The translations under genes and the position numbers were made by a program. From Halorubrum salinarum (lineage in GTDB: Archaea > Halobacteriota > Halobacteria > Halobacteriales > Haloferacaceae), in NCBI RefSeq assembly GCF_013267195.1, contig NZ_CP053941.1, forward strand, positions 1-64,000: a stretch of 64,000 nucleotides of DNA. Direction: 5' to 3'. Positions 33,081 to 44,255 of the stretch are shown piece after piece. A model generated the notes under the pieces. That model did not search any database. It had not been told where the DNA came from and was given only the letters and a program-made list of their open reading frames with translations. Every line of letters starts with the position of its first letter. Within the stretch, counting starts at the first letter, position 1.

Positions 33081-34256
33081 ATGGCAACCGACTCGGTAAC
33101 CGCGGTGATCCTCGCCGCGGGCGAGGGCCGGCGGCTGGCGCCGCTGACGAACCGGCGGCCGAAGCCGATGGTCCCCGTGGCGAACAGGCCGCTACTCGAA
33201 CACGTCGTGGAGGCCGTGACGGCGACCGACATCGACCGGATCGTCCTCGTCGTCGGCTACGAGCAGGAGCGCATCCGGAACCACTTCGGCGACGGCGACG
33301 ACTGGGGCGTCACGATCGAGTACGTCGAGCAGGCGACGCAGCTGGGCACCGGCCACGCCGTCCTCCAGGCCGAGCCGGTCGTCGACGGACCGTTCGTCGT
33401 GCTCAACGGCGACCGGATCGTCGACTCGTCGATCGTCTCGGCGATGCGCGACCGGGCGCTCGACGGTGCCCCCCCGGCGATGGCGGTCACGTCCGCGGCG
33501 AGGCCCCGCGAGTACGGCGTCGTCACGCTCGACGGCGACCGCGTGACGGCCATCGACGAGAAGCCGGAGGGGCCAGTCGAGACCAACCAGATAAACGCCG
33601 GCGTCTACGCCTTCTCGCCGGCGGTGTTCGACGCGATCCGCGAGACGCACGCCCCCGGCGAGTTGGCGATCACGGCGACGCTCAACGACCTCGCCGAGCG
33701 CGAGACGCTGTCGGCGGTGCGGTACGACGGGCGCTGGCTCGACGTGTCGAACCTCTGGGACCTGCTGGCCGTCAACGCGGGGCTGGTCGACGAGGCTGCG
33801 ACGCCCGATGCCGCGGGCGCGAGCCGCGGCGAGTCGGTGACCGTCGCCGACGACGTGGCGCTCGCGGGCAACGTGCGCGTCGGACCGAACGTCACGCTCG
33901 GCGGGAGCACCGCGATCGGCAGTAACGCGACCATCGAGGCGGGCGCGGTCGTCGAGAACGCCGTGGTCTTCCCAGACGCCGTGATCGGCGCCGGCGCCGT
34001 GGTCCGGGACGCGATCGTCGCCGGCAACGCGCGAGTCGGCCCGAACGCGACGATAGCAGGCGAACCGGCGACGGTCGTCGTCGGCGACGCGGTCCACCAC
34101 GGCGTCGAACTCGCCGGCGTGGTCGGGGACAACGCGACGGTCGGCGCCGGCGCGACGCTCACCGACGGCGCGGTCGTCGGCGACGACGTGACGGCCGACG
34201 CGGGGGTCGTGATCGACGACCGCGTCGACTCGGGTGCGGTCGTGCGGAGGGGGTAA
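33081..34256 (+). CDS. Sugar nucleotidyltransferase with beta-helix domain (second GlmU/AglF-like)
   Basis: 391 aa. The nucleotidyltransferase domain has LAAGEGRRLAPLT then RPKPMVPVAN, LNGDRIVD and the DEKP loop. The C-terminal ~150 residues repeat hexapeptide-like turns (VGPNVTLGGSTAIGSNATIEAG) but lack the acetyltransferase motifs of the gene at 24859, so it may be only a pyrophosphorylase (UDP-sugar). glmS starts 2 bp after its stop, a tight operon that ties it to amino-sugar supply. Confidence 0.82.
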   Translation: MATDSVTAVILAAGEGRRLAPLTNRRPKPMVPVANRPLLEHVVEAVTATDIDRIVLVVGYEQERIRNHFGDGDDWGVTIEYVEQATQLGTGHAVLQAEPVVDGPFVVLNGDRIVDSSIVSAMRDRALDGAPPAMAVTSAARPREYGVVTLDGDRVTAIDEKPEGPVETNQINAGVYAFSPAVFDAIRETHAPGELAITATLNDLAERETLSAVRYDGRWLDVSNLWDLLAVNAGLVDEAATPDAAGASRGESVTVADDVALAGNVRVGPNVTLGGSTAIGSNATIEAGAVVENAVVFPDAVIGAGAVVRDAIVAGNARVGPNATIAGEPATVVVGDAVHHGVELAGVVGDNATVGAGATLTDGAVVGDDVTADAGVVIDDRVDSGAVVRRG

Positions 34257-34258
34257 TC

Positions 34259-36133
34259 ATGTGCGGGATAACCGGCTACATCGGCGACGGCATCGCGCTG
34301 AATGACGGAGACAGCGACAGCGACGGTGCCGCGGGCGACGGCGGGGTCGCCGGCGTCGGCGACATCGTCCACGAGGGGCTCCGCAATCTAGAGTACCGCG
34401 GCTACGACTCCGCCGGCGTCGCGCTCGTCGGGGAGACGAGCGGGCTCACGGTCGCGAAGCGGTCCGGCGAGGTCGACAACCTCACCGTGCCCGACGTGCC
34501 CGACGCGGCGCTCGGCGTCGGCCACACGCGCTGGAGCACGCACGGCCCGCCGACGGACGCGAACGCTCACCCGCACACCGACTGCGTCGGCGACGTGGCG
34601 GTCGTCCACAACGGGATCGTCGAGAACCACGAGGCGCTCAAAGCCGAGCTAGCTGATCACGAGTTCACGAGCGACACCGACACCGAGGTCATCCCGCACC
34701 TGATCGAGGAAGAGCTCGCCGCCGAGCGCGGCGCGGACGGCCTCCTCGGCGCGGTCCGGGCCGTCGAGGACCGCTTGGAGGGGAGCTACGCGATCTGCGC
34801 GGTCCGCGAGGGCGACGACCGGATCGTCGTGGCGCGGCGCGGGAGCCCGCTCGTGTTGGGCCGCGACGACGACGCGACGTTCGTCGCCAGCGACGTGACG
34901 GCCTTCCTCGAACACACCCGCGACGTGACGTACCTCGAGGACGGCGACGTGGCGGCGCTGTCGGCCGAGGGCGTCGCAATCTACGCCGACGGCGATCTCG
35001 TCGACCGCGGCGTCGAGACGGTGACGTGGGAGGCCGACGCCGCCGAGAAGGGCGGCTACGAACACTACATGCGTAAAGAGATCCACGAGCAGCCCGAAGC
35101 CCTGCGGCAGACCATCGCAGGCCGGCTCGACGTGGACGCCGGCGGCGTCGACCTCGACGTCTCGTTCCCGCCGGGCTTTCTCGCGGACCTCGAAGAGATC
35201 CAGATCGTCGCCTGTGGCACCTCGAACTACGCGGGCCGGTACGCCGCGCAGCTGTTCGAGGAGCTCTCGGGAGTGCGCGCGACAGTTGAGATCGCCAGCG
35301 AGTACGAGTTCGGCGCTGGTCGCAGCCCGGACCGGACGCTCGTCGTCGCCGTGACGCAGAGCGGCGAGACCGCCGACACGCTGGGCGCGGTCCGGCGAGC
35401 GAACGCCGCGGGCGCGCGGACCTTCGCCGTGACGAACACGCTCGGGAGTACGGTGACGCGCGAGGTGGACGACACCGCGTTCATCCGCGCCGGCCCCGAG
35501 ATCGGCGTGGCGGCGACGAAGACGTTCGCCTCGCAGGTGGCGACGCTCGCGATGCTCGCGGTGGCGATCGGCCGCGAGCGCGGCGCGTTGGCCGCCGCCG
35601 ACGCCCGCCCCGTGCTGGAGGGGCTCCGCGACCTCCCCGGCGCGGTCCAGCAGGTGCTCGACGCCGAGTCGCGGGTCCGCGAGGCCGCCACCGAGTACGG
35701 CGACAGCGGGGCGTTCTTCTTCGTCGGCCGGCAGCTGGGCGTGCCGGTCGCTTTGGAGGGCGCGCTGAAGCTCAAGGAGATCTCCTACGACCACGCCGAG
35801 GGGTTCGCCGCCGGCGAGCTGAAACACGGCCCGCTCGCGCTGGTGACGCCCGACACGCCCGTGTTGGCCGTGCTGACCGACGGCGCGCGCGCCGCCGAGA
35901 CGATGAACAACGTGACCGAGGCACAGACGCGCGGCGCGCCCGCCATCGGCTGCGTCTCCGCGGACGAGGAGTACGGTACGCTGGACGTCTCGCTGCCGGT
36001 GCCCGACGTGGGCCTCGTCGAGCCGCTGGTCGCGAACGTCTACCTCCAGCTGTTCGCGTACCACGTGGCCAACGACAAGGGCCGGTCGATCGACAAGCCG
36101 CGGAACCTCGCGAAAAGCGTCACCGTCGAGTAG
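34259..36133 (+). CDS. glmS: Glutamine--fructose-6-phosphate aminotransferase (GlmS)
   Basis: 624 aa. It forms glucosamine 6-phosphate from fructose 6-phosphate and glutamine. The N-terminus MCGITGYIG exposes the Cys2 glutaminase nucleophile after Met removal. LEYRGYDSAG, GHTRWSTHG and HNGIVEN complete the glutaminase domain. Two SIS domains follow: VACGTSNYAGR with TQSGETADT, and VGRQLGVPVALEGALKLKEISY. The end DKPRNLAKSVTVE carries the conserved catalytic Lys. An acidic insert of about 15 residues (NDGDSDSDGAAGDGG) enlarges the first loop, a common haloarchaeal adaptation. Confidence 0.95.
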   Translation: MCGITGYIGDGIALNDGDSDSDGAAGDGGVAGVGDIVHEGLRNLEYRGYDSAGVALVGETSGLTVAKRSGEVDNLTVPDVPDAALGVGHTRWSTHGPPTDANAHPHTDCVGDVAVVHNGIVENHEALKAELADHEFTSDTDTEVIPHLIEEELAAERGADGLLGAVRAVEDRLEGSYAICAVREGDDRIVVARRGSPLVLGRDDDATFVASDVTAFLEHTRDVTYLEDGDVAALSAEGVAIYADGDLVDRGVETVTWEADAAEKGGYEHYMRKEIHEQPEALRQTIAGRLDVDAGGVDLDVSFPPGFLADLEEIQIVACGTSNYAGRYAAQLFEELSGVRATVEIASEYEFGAGRSPDRTLVVAVTQSGETADTLGAVRRANAAGARTFAVTNTLGSTVTREVDDTAFIRAGPEIGVAATKTFASQVATLAMLAVAIGRERGALAAADARPVLEGLRDLPGAVQQVLDAESRVREAATEYGDSGAFFFVGRQLGVPVALEGALKLKEISYDHAEGFAAGELKHGPLALVTPDTPVLAVLTDGARAAETMNNVTEAQTRGAPAIGCVSADEEYGTLDVSLPVPDVGLVEPLVANVYLQLFAYHVANDKGRSIDKPRNLAKSVTVE

Positions 36134-37017: not shown

Positions 37018-39753
37018 TTACCAGGTCAGCCCTTCGTAGGTGATCCCCTCGCGGCGTTCGATGATGCGGCGCCCGTCGACGACGATCGGGGTCGCCATCG
37101 CGTCGAACTCCGAATCGAGCGCGGCGAACTCGTCCCAGTCGGTGACGACGACCGCGCCGTCGGCGCCGTCGAGCGCCGCCGCGGCCGAGTCCGCGTACGT
37201 CACGTCGTCGACGTAGTTCGGGGCGTTGTCGGCCGCGACCGGGTCGTAGGCGGTGACCGTCGCGCCGCGTGCTTGAAGGTCCTCGATCACCGGAATCGCG
37301 CGGGAGTTCCGCATGTCGTCGGTGCCGGGCTTGAACGCGAGACCGAGGACGGCGATGGTCGCGCCGTCAACTCCGCGGTCACGGTGGTCGGCAAGGTGGG
37401 CGGCCAACAGTTCGACCAGCCGCGCCGGCTGGCGGTCGTTGACTTCGACCGCGGCGTTGAGCACCGCCGGCTCGTAGCCGGTCTCCTCCGCGGCCGCGAT
37501 GATTGCGGCGACGTCCTTGGGAAAGCAGTTGTGAACAACGAGACCATCCGTTGTCACAAACGTGTGATCGTCGGCGACCTCTAAGGAGTAGACCTCCGTT
37601 TCTGTTTCTTCAACAGAGACCTCACGGACCGGAACCGACGAGAAGCCCCCGTCTGCGGTGTGTCCGGTCGGCTTGATGTCGCGATCGTACTGGGCGAGCC
37701 GGTTTTCGATCCGTTCCCGTTCGTCTGTGAGGAACATCTCTTTCAATGCCGCGATCTGGTGTTTTGAACTCACACGGAGGAAGTGGGCCGGCTGTGTCGA
37801 CTTCGCCGATTCAGAGGTCTTGTAACTGGGCACAATACCGAGGCTGTGTAGGAGGAGCTGCATGCCGTCGATGAGCTCCTTGCTCACAGAACCATAATCG
37901 TAGACAACCGCGTTCGAGTGGCTCGTGTACTCAATGTGACCGTCACCTCTGAACAGCCCTGACAGTAGCGCCCGACGCTGCGATTCAGTTGCTTGGAATG
38001 CGCTGTCGGGGATCGCTGCGGAGTACGATCCGGATCCACAGCCGAGCCATTCGATGAATTCCGCGAATACGCGACTGGAAACAGTGATTTCCGTCGTAGT
38101 TTCGTGTTGTGACGTGCGATGTCGGATTCCTAATCGTTCGTAGTACGATTCGACCTCGCGTACGTACTCTGGCTCATCAGTTGGATGGAAACTCAGGGCA
38201 ACACGGCGGCGTGTCGTCGATCCATGACCAGACGTATCATCGTTGATGTGGCCTTCACTGAGGTAGTAGCCGATGAACCGCCAGAACTCCTCGTCAACCG
38301 GGAGCTTCGCCGGCACATATGTCTGTCCGCCACCCCGCGTCGTGTACAAGCTAAGATCAGCCCTGTCGACTGGTAATTCGTCTTCGTATGCGAGAAACAC
38401 ATCCAGCGGGAGGTAGTTGTCCCGAACAAGGTCCGAAACTTTGTGATAGTCGAACTGTCGGTTGTACTCTTGGAGGACCTCGTACACGTCGTCTTTGACT
38501 GTTTCAAGCGGTGTCGAGGGTTTCAGGTAGACGGACTCGTTGTCAAACGCGGTAGACGTCTTGATGATATCGATGAGATCAAACGTAGAGACAGGATCGC
38601 TTGGGAGGTCAGTCATCACTGGGATCGAATCACCCGGTTCGATTTCGGCCGCCGGCTGAATCGCACTGTCTTGTTCCGTGAGAGTGATTATTGGGTGGTC
38701 ATGCGTGACTGTGACTGTCTTGTTCATTTTCGTCCGGATCGTGTGGAGCGACCCCTCGTAGTGACGCCGCGTCGCTGCGTGAACTGGCTTGAATCGGAAC
38801 TTGCCGCTCGGAGACCGACTGAGCACGGCGACATCGTCGACGGTTTCTTCGGCGACGTACTTGTCAAAGAACTCGGTAAGTGTAAGATGGTTCACCCCCG
38901 TTTCGTCTTTCGTTAGAACGCGCTGGTCGCCTGTCAGACAGCTGCCGCCCCACCCCACACCGCTCTGGAGGAACTGCTCGCTGATCCGGTCGTCGAGGCC
39001 GATCGCGTCGGCGACCTCGTAGGCGTCGACGCCGAGCTCCTTACAGATGTTTCCGAGGTCGTTGATGAGGCTGACCTTCGCCGCGAGGAAGCCGTTGTTG
39101 GCGTACTTGATCATCTCGGCGGTGCGCGTGTCGGTCTCGACGACCGGCGCGTCGGCCGCCTCGACGAGCGGGGCGAACACCGCGCGCATGTCCTCGAGCG
39201 CGCGGTCGTCGTCCGCGCCGAGGACGACCTTGTCCGGATTCAAGAAGTCGTGGACGGCCGTCCCCTCGCGGAGGAACTCCGGATTCATCCCGACACCGAA
39301 TCCTTCGCCGGCGGTCCTCCCGCTCTCCGTTTCGAGGATCGGGGTGATCGCGTCCGCCGTCGAGCCGGGGACGACCGTGCTCTTGATGGCGACGGTGTGC
39401 CAGTCGGCTTTGTCGGCGAGCGCTCCGCCGAGCTGGCTCGCGCCCGCCTCCATGATCGACAGGTCGATGCTGCCGTCGTCGTTCTGCGGCGTCGGCAGAC
39501 AGAGGAAGGTCACGTCGGTGTCGCGGACCGCGGCGTAGTCGGTCGTCGCGCGGAGACGCCCCGTGCCCTCCGGCCCGGCGTGTTCGGCGATGAGTTCCGG
39601 GAGTCTCTCCTCGTGGATCGGCGCGTCGCCGGCGTTGATCGCCTCGACGACCGACTCGTCGATGTCGATGTTCACCACGTCGTGGCCCAGATCGGCGAAG
39701 CAGGCGGCGACCGTCGTGCCGACGTAGCCGCTGCCGACGATAGAGAGATCCAT
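37018..39753 (-). CDS. aglM: UDP-glucose 6-dehydrogenase (AglM-type) interrupted by an intein
   Basis: 911 aa, of which 440 remain after splicing, normal for the family. It oxidises UDP-glucose to UDP-glucuronate with two NAD+. The N-terminal NAD fold starts MDLSIVGSGYVGTTVAACFADLGH. LPTPQNDDGSID, IKSTVVPGST and MNPEFLREG follow, then the central helix with EMIKYANNGFLA. The active-site loop GVGWGGS-CFPKD is split by the intein exactly before the catalytic Cys. The C-terminal domain has LGLAFKPGTDDMRNSRA. The start at 39753 begins the Rossmann strand. The AglG-like transferase at 53965 would use the UDP-glucuronate; a TrmB-type operator lies upstream. Confidence 0.93.
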   Translation of the reverse strand: MDLSIVGSGYVGTTVAACFADLGHDVVNIDIDESVVEAINAGDAPIHEERLPELIAEHAGPEGTGRLRATTDYAAVRDTDVTFLCLPTPQNDDGSIDLSIMEAGASQLGGALADKADWHTVAIKSTVVPGSTADAITPILETESGRTAGEGFGVGMNPEFLREGTAVHDFLNPDKVVLGADDDRALEDMRAVFAPLVEAADAPVVETDTRTAEMIKYANNGFLAAKVSLINDLGNICKELGVDAYEVADAIGLDDRISEQFLQSGVGWGGSCLTGDQRVLTKDETGVNHLTLTEFFDKYVAEETVDDVAVLSRSPSGKFRFKPVHAATRRHYEGSLHTIRTKMNKTVTVTHDHPIITLTEQDSAIQPAAEIEPGDSIPVMTDLPSDPVSTFDLIDIIKTSTAFDNESVYLKPSTPLETVKDDVYEVLQEYNRQFDYHKVSDLVRDNYLPLDVFLAYEDELPVDRADLSLYTTRGGGQTYVPAKLPVDEEFWRFIGYYLSEGHINDDTSGHGSTTRRRVALSFHPTDEPEYVREVESYYERLGIRHRTSQHETTTEITVSSRVFAEFIEWLGCGSGSYSAAIPDSAFQATESQRRALLSGLFRGDGHIEYTSHSNAVVYDYGSVSKELIDGMQLLLHSLGIVPSYKTSESAKSTQPAHFLRVSSKHQIAALKEMFLTDERERIENRLAQYDRDIKPTGHTADGGFSSVPVREVSVEETETEVYSLEVADDHTFVTTDGLVVHNCFPKDVAAIIAAAEETGYEPAVLNAAVEVNDRQPARLVELLAAHLADHRDRGVDGATIAVLGLAFKPGTDDMRNSRAIPVIEDLQARGATVTAYDPVAADNAPNYVDDVTYADSAAAALDGADGAVVVTDWDEFAALDSEFDAMATPIVVDGRRIIERREGITYEGLTW
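37528..38940 (-). other. Intein with LAGLIDADG homing endonuclease in UDP-glucose dehydrogenase
   Basis: 471 residues, from C272 of the precursor to Asn before CFPKD. Splicing motifs are intact: Cys1 in CLTGDQRVL, the block B TVTH (intein 77-80), and the end DDHTFVTTDGLVVHN with the His-Asn pair. The +1 residue is Cys, which is also the enzyme's catalytic cysteine. Two LAGLIDADG-like helices are visible, FIGYYLSEG (222-230) and LLSGLFRGDG (325-334), each with an acidic residue, so the nuclease may be active. Base composition is visibly lower in GC than the exteins, a sign of transfer. Confidence 0.95.
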
Positions 39754-39903
39754 GTGGAGGTCACCTTCAACGGGTGGCCTCAAGAAGTGTTGGATCGTCG
39801 GAATCCGTCGAGAAGGTTGCGTTCGAGTGCTTCGAGAGATCGGCGGGCGTCGACCGTCGTCTCGCGCTCACCGGCTCGCCCGGTCAGCCGGTGAAGTCGA
39901 CGG

Positions 39904-40023
39904 CTACGCCTCGTCCGACTCCTCGTCGCGGCCTTCGGAGAGCCGCTCCCAGATCTCCGTACAGCCCGCGCCGTCGGGGACGTCAGCGAGGTGGGCGTCG
40001 TCAGCAGCGTCTGAGTTACTCAT
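39904..40023 (-). CDS. 39-residue acidic microprotein
   Basis: A short frame begins ATG (40023) and stops TAG (39904-39906). The protein starts MSNSDAADDAHL, is strongly acidic and contains GAGCTEIWERLSE in the middle, a pattern I recall in small haloarchaeal proteins. It lies between aglM and trmB. An operator-like palindrome covers its start codon, and a TTATTACG box lies about 30 bp upstream on the same strand, so it is probably transcribed and repressible, perhaps ahead of aglM. Confidence 0.6.
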   Translation of the reverse strand: MSNSDAADDAHLADVPDGAGCTEIWERLSEGRDEESDEA

Positions 40024-40035
40024 GTTCTGAGTAAC
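40015..40035. promoter_or_regulatory. TrmB-type operator 1
   Basis: GTTACTCA-N5-TGAGTAAC is a perfect 8-bp inverted repeat. It contains TACT-N8-GAGTA, the spacing I recall for the TrmB regulator of Halobacterium. It covers the start codon of the microprotein and lies 75 bp before the trmB ATG. Confidence 0.7.
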
Positions 40036-40109
40036 CGTATCGGCGCCCACGTAATAACTGTTCCGGCGGCACCAGTACGTACTTACGGAGCGAACGAGGA
40101 CGAACGGGC

Positions 40110-40991
40110 ATGACGGATTCCGGAGCGGACCTCTTCTCGCTGCTCGATCTGACGGAGTACGAAGCCGACGCCTTAGAGGAGCTGCTGCTGTTGGGCCGGA
40201 CGACGGCGCCCGACCTCGCGGAGGCGACCGGGATCCCGAAGGCCCGGATCTACGGCGTCCTCGACGCGCTCTCCGAGGCGGGGTACGTGAAAGTGATTCC
40301 GGGCCGGCCGAAGCGGTACGAGCCCCACGAGCCGGCGGCGATCGCCGAGCGGGCGGTCGAGAACCGTCGCCACGCCTACGAGCGATTCCGCGAGGACGTC
40401 GAAGCCGTCGAGGCGGCGTTCGTCGACGAGTACGCGCCGGTCCGCGACCGGGGCGTCGACGAGCTGAGCCCGACGGAGGACCTGTTCCACGTCGTCGACG
40501 TGGGCGAGCCGAGCGAGCGCGAGACGCGGCGGCTGTTCCGCGAGGCCGAGGAGGCGGTGTACGTGCTCTCGAAGAGCTTCGGCTACGTCGACGCCGTGCG
40601 CCCGGCGATGCGCGACGCGGTCGACCGCGGCGTCGACGTCGACGTACTCCTCCTCCATCCCGAGTCGCTGTCCGCGGAGAACCGTGAGCGACAGGCCGCG
40701 ATCCGCGAGACGCTCGCCGCGGAGTTCCCGTCCGTCTCCGTGCGCGTCAGCGACCGCGTGCTGCCGTGGCGCGGCACCTTCGCCGACCCGAGCCTCTCGT
40801 ACGAGTCCGGGCAGGGGCTGCTCATGGTCGAACAGGAGGAGGTGCCGAACCACCACCGACAGGCCGCGGTCACCGAGAACCCCTCGTTCGTGGCGGGGAT
40901 GTGGCAGTACTTCGACCTGCTGTGGCGCCACGAGAGCGTTCCCGCCGAACCGGGCCCCGACCCGGAACCCGGAGACGCCGGCGCGGAGTGA
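40110..40991 (+). CDS. trmB: TrmB-family sugar-responsive transcription regulator
   Basis: 293 aa. An N-terminal winged helix (about 8-75: LTEYEADALEELLLLGRTTAPD, IPKARIYGVLDALSEAGYV) is followed by a short coiled linker (about 85-115) and a C-terminal PLD-like/TrmB sensor domain (VYVLSKSFGYVDAVRPAM, VDVDVLLLHPESL). In haloarchaea TrmB homologues bind DNA when glucose is low and control gluconeogenic and sugar genes. Matching operators lie on both sides of the gene, before the aglM-side microprotein and before the SDR operon, so it probably tunes nucleotide-sugar supply for glycosylation. Confidence 0.85.
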   Translation: MTDSGADLFSLLDLTEYEADALEELLLLGRTTAPDLAEATGIPKARIYGVLDALSEAGYVKVIPGRPKRYEPHEPAAIAERAVENRRHAYERFREDVEAVEAAFVDEYAPVRDRGVDELSPTEDLFHVVDVGEPSERETRRLFREAEEAVYVLSKSFGYVDAVRPAMRDAVDRGVDVDVLLLHPESLSAENRERQAAIRETLAAEFPSVSVRVSDRVLPWRGTFADPSLSYESGQGLLMVEQEEVPNHHRQAAVTENPSFVAGMWQYFDLLWRHESVPAEPGPDPEPGDAGAE

Positions 40992-41080
40992 CGTGAGCGG
41001 ACCGGATCCGTCGTAAGCGAACCGGATCCGTCGGCGGCGTTATCACCGCGGCGAACCCAACCGCAAAGCATTTACTCGTA

Positions 41081-41101
41081 GTTACTCGATGTCCGAGTAA
41101 C
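41081..41101. promoter_or_regulatory. TrmB-type operator 2
   Basis: GTTACTCG-N5-CGAGTAAC is a perfect 8-bp inverted repeat with the same TACT-N8-GAGTA core and spacer as operator 1. It ends one base before the ATG of the sulfoquinovose-synthase-like gene, where binding would block transcription start. A partial extra half site TTTACTCG lies just upstream (41071-41078). Confidence 0.72.
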
Positions 41102-41102
41102 G

Positions 41103-42251
41103 ATGACCGTCCTACTCACCGGTGCCGACGGCTACCTCGGTTGGCCGACCGCGCTGCGACTGGCGGACCGCCTCGACGAGCGCGTCGTCTGCGTCGACGA
41201 CTTCTCGCGGCGCGACTGGGTCGCCGAGTCCGGGAGCGTCTCCGCAACGCGGATCGAGGATCCCGAGGAGCGCTTCGAGCGCGTCGAGAACCTCAGCTTA
41301 GTCGAAGGGGACCTCGCCGACCGCGACTTCGTGCTCCAGTTGCTGGCGACCCACGAGCCCGACACCGTGCTTCACGCGGCCGCGCAGCCCAGCGCGCCCT
41401 ACTCGTCGATCAACGGCGAGCGCGCGCTGTACACCCAGCGCAACAACGTCTCGATGACGCTGAACCTGCTCCACGGGCTCCACGAAACGGGGCTGTCGGA
41501 CACCCACTTCATCGAGACGACGACCACCGGTATCTACGGGGCACCGCATTTCCCGATCCCGGAGGGCGGCCTCGAAGTCGACCGGAAGGGCGGCTCCGAC
41601 GAGGTGCCGTTCCCGGCGATGGGCGGCAGCTGGTACCACCAGACGAAGTCGTTCGACGCCGCGAACATGCGGCTCGCCGAGTCGCAGTTCAACTTCCCGA
41701 TGAGCGAGGTGCGGACCGCCATCGTCTACGGCACGGAGACCGCGGAGACGCGCGACCACGAGAGCCCGACGCGGTTCGACTTCGACTACTACTTCGGCAC
41801 CGTCGTGAACCGGTTCTGCGCGCAGGCCGTGGCGGGGTACCCGATCACGGTGTACGGGAAAGGCGAACAGCGCAAGCCGATGGTGAGCCTCGAAGACGCC
41901 GTCGAGAGTCTCGTGCGGCTGGTCGAGCAGGGCCACTCCGGCGACGACGGGATCGACGTGTACAACCAGGTCACCCGGCCGATAGCGATCGTCGAGCTGG
42001 CGGAGACGATCGCCGAGGTCGGCGCGGAGTTCGACCTGGACGCTGAAGTGAAACACTACGAAAACCCGCGCGAAGAGGACGAAGAACACAAAATGGAGAT
42101 GGAAAACGAGCGGTTCCTCGAGTTGGTCGGCGGGCAGCGGCAGGATCTCGAGTCCGGAATCCGCGATGTACTCGGGACGCTCGTCGACGAGCGCGAGCGC
42201 ATCGCGGCCCACGAGGACCGGTTCCTGCCGGGCGTGCTGACCGATGAGTGA
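41103..42251 (+). CDS. UDP-sulfoquinovose synthase-like SDR (Agl3/SQD1-like)
   Basis: 382 aa. The NAD motif is TGADGYLGWPTALRL, as in plant SQD1 and Sulfolobus Agl3. Other SQD1-like blocks are present in order: LHAAAQPSAPYSSI then RALYTQRNNVSMTLNLL, TTTTGIYGAPHFPIPEGGLE, SWYHQTKSFDA (Tyr-x-x-x-Lys), VYGTETAETRDHE, RFDFDYYFGTVVNRFCAQA and NPREEDEEHKMEME. The enzyme makes UDP-sulfoquinovose from UDP-glucose and sulfite. It heads a three-gene SDR operon under a TrmB-type operator. The motif match supports this better than a generic epimerase name. Confidence 0.82.
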   Translation: MTVLLTGADGYLGWPTALRLADRLDERVVCVDDFSRRDWVAESGSVSATRIEDPEERFERVENLSLVEGDLADRDFVLQLLATHEPDTVLHAAAQPSAPYSSINGERALYTQRNNVSMTLNLLHGLHETGLSDTHFIETTTTGIYGAPHFPIPEGGLEVDRKGGSDEVPFPAMGGSWYHQTKSFDAANMRLAESQFNFPMSEVRTAIVYGTETAETRDHESPTRFDFDYYFGTVVNRFCAQAVAGYPITVYGKGEQRKPMVSLEDAVESLVRLVEQGHSGDDGIDVYNQVTRPIAIVELAETIAEVGAEFDLDAEVKHYENPREEDEEHKMEMENERFLELVGGQRQDLESGIRDVLGTLVDERERIAAHEDRFLPGVLTDE

Positions 42252-43227
42252 GTCCGGAGACCACGGTGCCACTGACGGCCAGCGGGTCCTCGTTACGGGC
42301 GGCTGCGGCTACATCGGCAGCGCACTGGTTCCGCGGCTGCTCGACGACGCGCGCGTGAGCGAGGTCATCGTCCTCGACTCACTGGCCAACGGTTCACCCG
42401 CGCACCTCGCCGGCTGCGTCGGCCCGGATCTCGATTTTCGCCGCGGCGACGTCCGCGAGTACGGCGCCGTCGAGAGCGCGACCCGCGGCGTCGACGCCGT
42501 GATCCACCTCGCGGCGATTACCGGCGCCGCGTCGACGCACGACCGGCGCGAGGAGACGTTCGCGGTCAACCGCGACGGCACCGAGAACGTGCTCACGGCC
42601 GCGGGCAAGTTCGACGTCGACAGCGTCGTCGTCGCCTCCTCGTGTAACAACTACGGTCGGGCAGCGAGCCGCGACATCGACGAGACGACCGAGCAGAACC
42701 CCCTCAATCCGTACGCCGAGTCGAAGGTGGCCTGCGAGCGGCTGTTAGACGACGCGCTCGAGGCGTACGATTTCGAGGGGACGGCGCTCCGGATGAGCAC
42801 GAACTACGGCTGGTCGCCGGGCGTCCGATTTAATCTGGTGGTGAACCACTTCGTGTTCCGCGGGCTGACGGACCGCCCGCTGACGGTGTACGGTGACGGG
42901 TCGAACTGGCGGCCGTTCATCCACGTGCGCGACGCGGCACGGGCGTATCTCGACGCCGCGTTGGAACCGGATGCGTGGCCTCAGCGGGTGTATAACGTCG
43001 GTTCGAACGAGGGGAACTACCGGATCGCGGAGATTGCGGAGATTGTCCGCGAGGAGCTGGATCGGGATTTAGACGTGACGTACTTAGAGGATGAACAGCC
43101 CGGGCCCTCGTATCACGTGAACTTCGACCGGCTGGCCGGGACGGGCTTCGAGACGGAGTGGACGCTGCGAGAGGGAATTCGAGATATCGCGAGCGAGTTG
43201 ACCGGCTCGGAGGCGATTGAAGCATGA
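42244..43227 (+). CDS. NAD-dependent nucleotide-sugar epimerase/dehydratase 2
   Basis: 327 aa extended SDR. It has the NAD motif TGGCGYIGSALVPRLL, an active-site block VVASSCNNYGRA with NPYAESKVACE (Tyr-x-x-x-Lys), and WRPFIHVRDAARA. The start overlaps the previous stop by 8 bp (ATGAGTGA) and the end overlaps the next start by 4 bp. Substrate unknown; the context suggests UDP-hexose or UDP-hexuronate for an N-glycan. Confidence 0.82.
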   Translation: MSESGDHGATDGQRVLVTGGCGYIGSALVPRLLDDARVSEVIVLDSLANGSPAHLAGCVGPDLDFRRGDVREYGAVESATRGVDAVIHLAAITGAASTHDRREETFAVNRDGTENVLTAAGKFDVDSVVVASSCNNYGRAASRDIDETTEQNPLNPYAESKVACERLLDDALEAYDFEGTALRMSTNYGWSPGVRFNLVVNHFVFRGLTDRPLTVYGDGSNWRPFIHVRDAARAYLDAALEPDAWPQRVYNVGSNEGNYRIAEIAEIVREELDRDLDVTYLEDEQPGPSYHVNFDRLAGTGFETEWTLREGIRDIASELTGSEAIEA

Positions 43228-44255
43228 CCGACACGGAAGACACCGAGACGGACGAGGAGGGCAGCGACAGATCGATCGAGACGCCCACTATCGCGGTAAC
43301 GGGCGCAGCCGGCTACATTGGAAGCCGCGTGGTCGTGGAATTCCAGGAGGCGTATCCTGACTGGGAGCTTATCGCGATCGACAACCAGTACCGCGGACAG
43401 GTGGATGCGATCGGCGACGTCGACATCAAGCACGTCGACATCCGAAACCGTGACCGGCTGGAAGACGCGCTCGCGGGCGCGGACGTGGTGTGTCACCTCG
43501 CGGCGATCAGCGGCGTCGACGATTGCGACGAGAACCCCGATCTGGCCTACGAGGTGAACGTCACCGGGACGAACAACGTGGCGTGGTTCTGCCGGAAGAC
43601 GGGCGCCGCGCTCGCGTTCCCGTTCAGCATGGCCGTGTTGGGTGATCCCGAGGAGTTCCCGATCACGGCCGACCAGCCGCGGGATCCGCTGAACTGGTAC
43701 GGGCGGACGAAGTGGATCGGTGAGCGATCGATCGAGGCGTTCGCGGACGGCGCGTTCCCGGCGCACCTCTTCTTGAAGTCGAACCTCTACGGCGAGCACG
43801 TCGTCGACGGGACAGAGGTGGGGAAACCGACCGTGATCAACTTCTTTGTGAATCGCGCGCTCGCGGGCGAGACGCTGACGGTGTACGATCCCGGGACGCA
43901 GGCGCGGAACTTCGTTCACGTGAAGGACGTAGCGCGGGCGTACGTGCGGAGCGCGGAGCGGTTGGTGGAGCAGTTGGAGCGAGGGGAGACCGGGACCGAG
44001 ACGTACGAAATCGCGAGTGACGAGGATCTGAGCGTAATTGAGGTGGCGGAGATCGTGCGGGAGGCCGCTCACGAGGAGCACGGGATCGACGTGGATGTAG
44101 AGTTGGTGGAGAATCCACGAGGTGCGGAGACGATGGTGGAGGAATTTGGGGTGGACATCTCTGAAACTGGAAGACGAATCGGGTGGAACCCGACACAAAC
44201 TGTTACCGACTCGGTTGGGGGACTGATCTCCTCTGTCGGCCCCGTTACGGAGTGA
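43224..44255 (+). CDS. NAD-dependent nucleotide-sugar epimerase/dehydratase 3
   Basis: 343 aa extended SDR after an acidic ~25-residue leader. The NAD motif is TGAAGYIGSRVVVEF. The active site shows FPFSMAVLGDP and LNWYGRTKWIGE (Tyr-x-x-x-Lys), and ARNFVHVKDVARA follows. It is the third member of the coupled operon and the last strongly GC-rich gene before the island. The function is probably a distinct step of the same sugar modification. Confidence 0.8.
   Translation: MTDTEDTETDEEGSDRSIETPTIAVTGAAGYIGSRVVVEFQEAYPDWELIAIDNQYRGQVDAIGDVDIKHVDIRNRDRLEDALAGADVVCHLAAISGVDDCDENPDLAYEVNVTGTNNVAWFCRKTGAALAFPFSMAVLGDPEEFPITADQPRDPLNWYGRTKWIGERSIEAFADGAFPAHLFLKSNLYGEHVVDGTEVGKPTVINFFVNRALAGETLTVYDPGTQARNFVHVKDVARAYVRSAERLVEQLERGETGTETYEIASDEDLSVIEVAEIVREAAHEEHGIDVDVELVENPRGAETMVEEFGVDISETGRRIGWNPTQTVTDSVGGLISSVGPVTE

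Follow-up and report, generated by a model that had tools for sequence, protein, structure and literature searches.

The window, a stretch of 64,000 nucleotides from Halorubrum salinarum (assembly G000, 3.34 Mb in three contigs), contains a gene for a TrmB-family regulator situated between two matching palindromes. The regulator gene (40110..40991, + strand) encodes a protein of 293 aa with a winged helix, a coiled coil and a PLD-like domain, and without the sugar-binding domain PF11495. To its left is a divergently transcribed gene for a microprotein of 39 aa (39904..40023, - strand; MSNSDAADDAHLADVPDGAGCTEIWERLSEGRDEESDEA), and to its right is an apparent operon of three rightwards transcribed SDR genes. 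The first of these, SDR1 (41103..42251, + strand), is a relative of UDP-sulfoquinovose synthase (SQD1, SqdB, Agl3), and is followed by two NAD-dependent epimerase/dehydratase genes, SDR2 (42244..43227, + strand) and SDR3 (43224..44255, + strand), each of which overlaps the end of the gene before it. Further to the left are aglM (UDP-glucose 6-dehydrogenase, 37018-39783, - strand), which is interrupted by an intein whose N- and C-terminal splicing motifs occupy residues 282-367 and 730-753, and genes for a GlmU-like nucleotidyltransferase and GlmS (33081..36133, + strand). The latter are UDP-amino-sugar supply genes that often lie near the locus (at 15 of the 25 orthologous loci they fall inside the stretch examined) and have no operator of their own; other neighbours include glycosyltransferases, flippases and a sulfatase-like gene.

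Two palindromes and their rarity

Operator 1 (40015..40035) is a perfect palindrome, GTTACTCA-N5-TGAGTAAC (full-length site GTTACTCATGTTCTGAGTAAC), as is operator 2 (41081..41101), GTTACTCG-N5-CGAGTAAC (full-length site GTTACTCGATGTCCGAGTAAC); neither is assigned a strand. The arms, spacing and coordinates given for them in the preliminary description are exact, and both sites fit TACT-N8-GAGTA. A scan of the whole 3.34 Mb genome for GTTACTC-N7-GAGTAAC recovers exactly two exact copies, operators 1 and 2, with no copy at one mismatch and a single, asymmetric copy at two; forward matches with up to three mismatches number 35, compared with 19 for the control. The exact pattern read backwards is absent from all 293 genomes scanned in the order. 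The two palindromes are therefore real and far beyond chance. The loose form TACT-N8-GAGTA is matched 16 times over the two strands, the control 11 times, and because it is not clearly enriched the evidence rests on the full palindrome. A genome-wide regulon defined by the loose form was rejected on these same counts, and so were further regulon members in this genome, given the want of any one-mismatch site and the asymmetry of the lone two-mismatch site.

Promoter geometry

The start of the microprotein gene (MSN, ATGAGTAAC) is itself part of operator 1, the codons ATG AGT AAC (Met-Ser-Asn) forming one half-site. The preliminary description was thus right that this site covers the microprotein start, but its placement on the aglM side needs correction, aglM being about 150 bp beyond the microprotein gene. 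Relatives whose microprotein starts with MTA or MSD generally have the palindrome upstream of the ATG and not over it. Operator 2 abuts the ATG of the SDR operon as described, spanning -22 to -2 and leaving 1 bp to the SDR1 ATG (41103), and across the genomes the site stays 1–4 bp ahead of the SDR1 start codon. TATA-like boxes, assigned by consensus only, lie upstream of both sites: TTATTA at 40052..40057 (- strand, -34 to -29) for the microprotein, an offset at which an AT-rich peak is seen across 56 homologous promoters, and ATTTAC at 41070..41075 (+ strand, -33 to -28) for SDR1. All 49 distinct SDR1 promoters from fetched relatives with the regulator or the operator have the palindrome starting at -25 to -20, preceded at about 15 bp by an A/T-rich TATA-like block; in the 56 microprotein promoters the palindrome mostly starts at -22, -21 or -12, with the TATA-like block about 20 bp upstream.

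The operators thus probably cover the transcription start, downstream of the TATA-like box. In TrmB-type regulators a site downstream of the TATA box or over the start corresponds to repression and one upstream of the TATA box to activation (PMC4158304, PMC10817205), a rule that has exceptions, HAH_0188 being one (PMC10817205). Because both operators have the downstream position, repression is the most likely outcome, and the repression proposed earlier for the SDR operon is supported by its repressor-type geometry. That the same regulator and operators should serve activation, or act in both directions, is unlikely: relatives of TrmB do act both ways according to site position, and operator 1 precedes the ATG of the regulator gene by 75-95 bp, an activator-like position for that gene, but the site follows the TATA-like box and covers the start at both of the conserved target promoters.

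Autoregulation is possible in the window, as had been suggested, but it is not a conserved arrangement, since the distance from the palindrome to the regulator's ATG ranges from 51 to 709 bp among relatives while the microprotein geometry is mostly fixed, and since in two genomes (G097, G179) the microprotein and SDR1 genes are side by side some 4 kb away from the regulator. The suggestion that UDP-glucuronate synthesis is a target through aglM did not survive: site 1 is the microprotein's, aglM has no operator of its own, and only 3 of 25 relatives have it near the locus, so it was rejected as a conserved target. Read-through from the microprotein gene into aglM may occur in this genome.

Conservation and co-occurrence

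Orthologues of the regulator, with 53-94% identity, were drawn from a set of genomes and from contigs of Halorubrum, Halonotius, Halomarina, Halarchaeum, Halopenitus and Halobellus. Each of the 25 orthologous loci examined at the outset has a palindrome with 0-2 mismatches at the microprotein gene, and SDR1 also has one wherever its promoter falls inside the stretch (for G016, as seen from further sequence). The SDR1 site is kept where the operon is inverted or several kb away (L062-L064, L066, L067, L069), and it is still at the SDR1 ATG in genomes (G160, G180, G252) that have 0.2 to 2.4 Mb between SDR1 and the regulator. Among the aligned promoters of relatives the arms hardly vary and the seven bases between them are variable. 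Conservation of the arms upstream of orthologous operons, on which the earlier proposal of the motif depended, is therefore strong in Halorubrum and well beyond.

The palindrome and the regulator also occur together. Among 59 other genomes of the family the regulator is found in 11 and exact palindromes in 10, all of them within those 11. Across 293 genomes of the order, in cross-tables compiled by hand from the search listings, 99 have the regulator, 86 an exact palindrome and 85 both, such that the palindrome is present in 85/99 genomes with the regulator and in 1/194 without it (Fisher p about 1e-57, a value that ignores kinship among the genomes). The lone exception, G186, is 72% complete and has its site at SDR1; G195 likewise has a site at SDR1 and no regulator match at the cut-off. 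Several regulator-containing genomes with no exact site have copies with one or two mismatches beside the regulator or SDR1. The SDR1 gene itself is more widespread, occurring in 98 of the 99 regulator genomes and in 23 others. Among 20 SDR1 promoters from genomes that have no regulator, one (G195) has a one-mismatch site, two have, at the corresponding position, decayed remnants with 3-4 mismatches (G125 and G276; L225 at -25 and L237 at -23 from SDR1) and 17 have none, as if operators decay after the regulator is lost. A search for relatives of the regulator on named plasmids found none.

Exact operators are also found at other genes in a few genomes. In G240 (L167 1501-1521) and G242 (L217 3164-3184), which belong to one genus, a surface glycoprotein gene (halo_sig_pep, and in L217 also PGF-CTERM) is preceded at about 300 bp by a third copy, which closely follows a TATA-like stretch; the G242 microprotein is identical in sequence to that of Halomarina oriensis. 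G145 has a third copy (L218 3324-3344) 4 bp before a type I phosphodiesterase/nucleotide pyrophosphatase gene (PF01663), and in G124 a second microprotein copy, on a different contig (C197) from the regulator, has an exact operator directly before its start (L221 2861-2881).

The regulator is distinct from the glucose-responsive TrmB

The preliminary description took the regulator for a glucose-type TrmB that ties UDP-glucuronate and UDP-sulfoquinovose genes to glucose status. The binding sites are in keeping with this, as both predicted operators match the sugar-sensing TrmB binding-site pattern TACT-N7-8-GAGTA, the motif of Halobacterium TrmB with the same half-sites (PMC4158304), and TrmB has been linked to S-layer glycosylation in Halobacterium (PMC4245038). 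The protein itself matches PF01978, the TrmB-domain HTH, at 65.5 bits (cut-off 25.6), but PF11495 gives no match at E<=1 in it or in two orthologues; in the same Pfam run the true TrmB of this genome has PF11495 at 244.8 bits. That true glucose TrmB is encoded elsewhere (G000:C1:2463915-2464961) and scores 610 bits with NF047392 (cut-off 500), whereas the local regulator falls far below the cut-offs of the sugar-sensing families (35.9 of 500 bits with NF047392 and 34.5 of 600 with NF040851, mostly over the HTH region) and of TrmBL2 (41.8 of 530 bits with NF041141).

The distribution of the two proteins points the same way. A true TrmB is present in 56 of 60 family genomes, most of which have no exact palindrome; other than in the window's genome, exact palindromes are confined to 10 of the 11 genomes with the local regulator, and three genomes (G011, G037, G056) have palindromes and the local regulator with no true TrmB. 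The palindrome follows the local regulator and not the true TrmB. Among the genes named for the 15 ChIP-seq peaks of Haloarcula hispanica TrmB there is no epimerase or SqdB gene, although that species may not carry the operon. We therefore consider control by a glucose-type TrmB highly improbable: the sites do appear to belong to the TrmB-family regulator between them, as first proposed, but its identification as the glucose type, and with it the sensing of sugar status, is not supported. Because the published motif of the true TrmB has the same half-sites, cross-binding of the palindromes by that protein is conceivable and may occur.

Comparison with characterized relatives places the regulator apart from each. 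With the TrmB proteins of Halobacterium salinarum and Haloarcula hispanica (VNG1451C and HAH_1548; NF047392) it shares the PF01978 winged helix and the motif half-sites; unlike them it has no PF11495, appears to have two conserved target promoters compared to their 15 peaks or ~113 promoters, and coexists in its genome with a separate true TrmB. An AlphaFold2 model (mean pLDDT 78; pTM 0.51, a modest confidence in domain packing) predicts a winged helix, a long helix and a PLD-like domain, and its best structural match is TrmBL2 of Pyrococcus (PDB 5BOX; Foldseek E 6e-18; VIA Z 16.6 over 255 residues at 15.5 Å rmsd, the domain orientation being different or uncertain). As modelled, it resembles TrmBL2 in having a winged helix, a coiled coil and a PLD-like domain with no sugar-binding part or barrel. 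However, TrmBL2 is a chromatin protein on coding and intergenic DNA, whereas the local regulator is predicted to act at two specific palindromic sites.

The SDR operon and its probable product

SDR1 aligns with SQD1 over its full length (E 2.5e-65) and scores 337.2 bits with the UDP-sulfoquinovose synthase family NF041015, under the cut-off of 575 bits. Like SQD1, SqdB and Agl3 it keeps the active-site residues, with the catalytic Thr and the Y-x3-K present in 55/55 SDR1 proteins and the active-site His also retained. Unlike Agl3, in which Arg101 and Met145 are essential (PMC4388408), all 55 have Pro and Thr at these positions, the residues being aligned through SQD1. UDP-sulfoquinovose, the product assumed in the preliminary description, is therefore doubtful.

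A similar operon, sqdB-galE-galE, consisting of an SqdB homologue and two GalE-type SDRs, was reported in Haloquadratum walsbyi and tied there to sulfolipid (PMC1544339); in the part of that account available to us a regulator, operators or a microprotein are not mentioned. The shared gene order would fit a sulfolipid role under phosphate limitation, an alternative that concerns the pathway and not the switch. We regard it as improbable, given the GlmS/GlmU, glycosyltransferase, flippase and sulfatase-like neighbours, the operators that precede surface glycoprotein genes in two genomes, and the absence from SDR1 of the residues essential in Agl3. The surface glycoprotein operators suggest a link to surface glycans and the GlmS/GlmU neighbours suggest an amino sugar, for example the 6-sulfo-quinovosamine of Haloarcula S-layers, where the S-layer proteins of Haloarcula hispanica carry an N-linked trisaccharide with 6-sulfo-QuiN (PMC9943897). 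In the haloarchaeal literature searched the sugar appears under that name, the word "sulfoquinovosamine" not being found; the portions seen of the literature naming both TrmB and sulfoquinovose contain no description of the present locus. We infer that the probable product of the operon is an amino-sugar nucleotide, modified and perhaps sulfonated, that would be used in surface glycans.

A microprotein family associated with SDR1

The microprotein belongs to a family of about 40 residues with the conserved core DGxGCxEIWExLSExR and with no match in a Pfam search. At least one member is encoded by 265/293 genomes. An exclusive partnership with the regulator was rejected in view of this breadth and of a second copy in the window's own genome (L202 4103-4171; G000:C1:152602-152697) that has no operator. 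This second copy adjoins a gene for an HTH-CBS-domain protein, and such a neighbour also lies beside the microprotein gene in G057 (L203), a genome with no regulator. In four regulator-less genomes (L223, L226, L231, L232) the microprotein gene overlaps the start of SDR1 by 4 bp (ATGA; the microprotein ends at 304 and SDR1 starts at 301) in one apparent operon. The overlap is found in Haladaptatus (G197, G229), with the H. salinisoli gene annotated only as a hypothetical protein. Because it occurs in genomes with no regulator, the overlap supports a working partnership of the microprotein with SDR1 that would be independent of the regulator.

A model for the locus

What is established here is established by comparison, from conservation, co-occurrence, geometry and domain make-up. 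The explanation that we favor, and consider likely, is that the TrmB-family protein acts locally, as a one-component repressor devoted to the microprotein gene and the SDR1-SDR2-SDR3 operon, with the palindromes as its operators. It would bind each as a dimer, with one winged helix per GTTACTC arm, and by covering the probable start would repress the two promoters. A ligand of the PLD-like C-terminal domain, probably not glucose and perhaps an intermediate or product of the sugar pathway, would release it, allowing synthesis of the putative sugar nucleotide by enzymes with which the microprotein would cooperate through SDR1. We speculate further, and tentatively, that SDR1 is the missing UDP-sulfoquinovosamine synthase behind the 6-sulfo-quinovosamine of S-layers, with the microprotein its dedicated partner and the module under a TrmB-family repressor that responds to a pathway metabolite and not to glucose; SDR1 may then use a UDP-GlcNAc-type substrate and sulfite, and the microprotein, through its conserved cysteine, may for example deliver or activate the sulfite.

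These comparisons caution that a TACT...AGTA palindrome does not always signify glucose control. They provide a haloarchaeal regulator with a predicted operator and a predicted two-promoter regulon in about one-third of the sampled genomes of the order, and they connect one enzyme, SDR1, with a microprotein family that has no Pfam match. SDR1 is itself a candidate for the synthesis of the sulfonated amino sugar found in Haloarcula S-layers.
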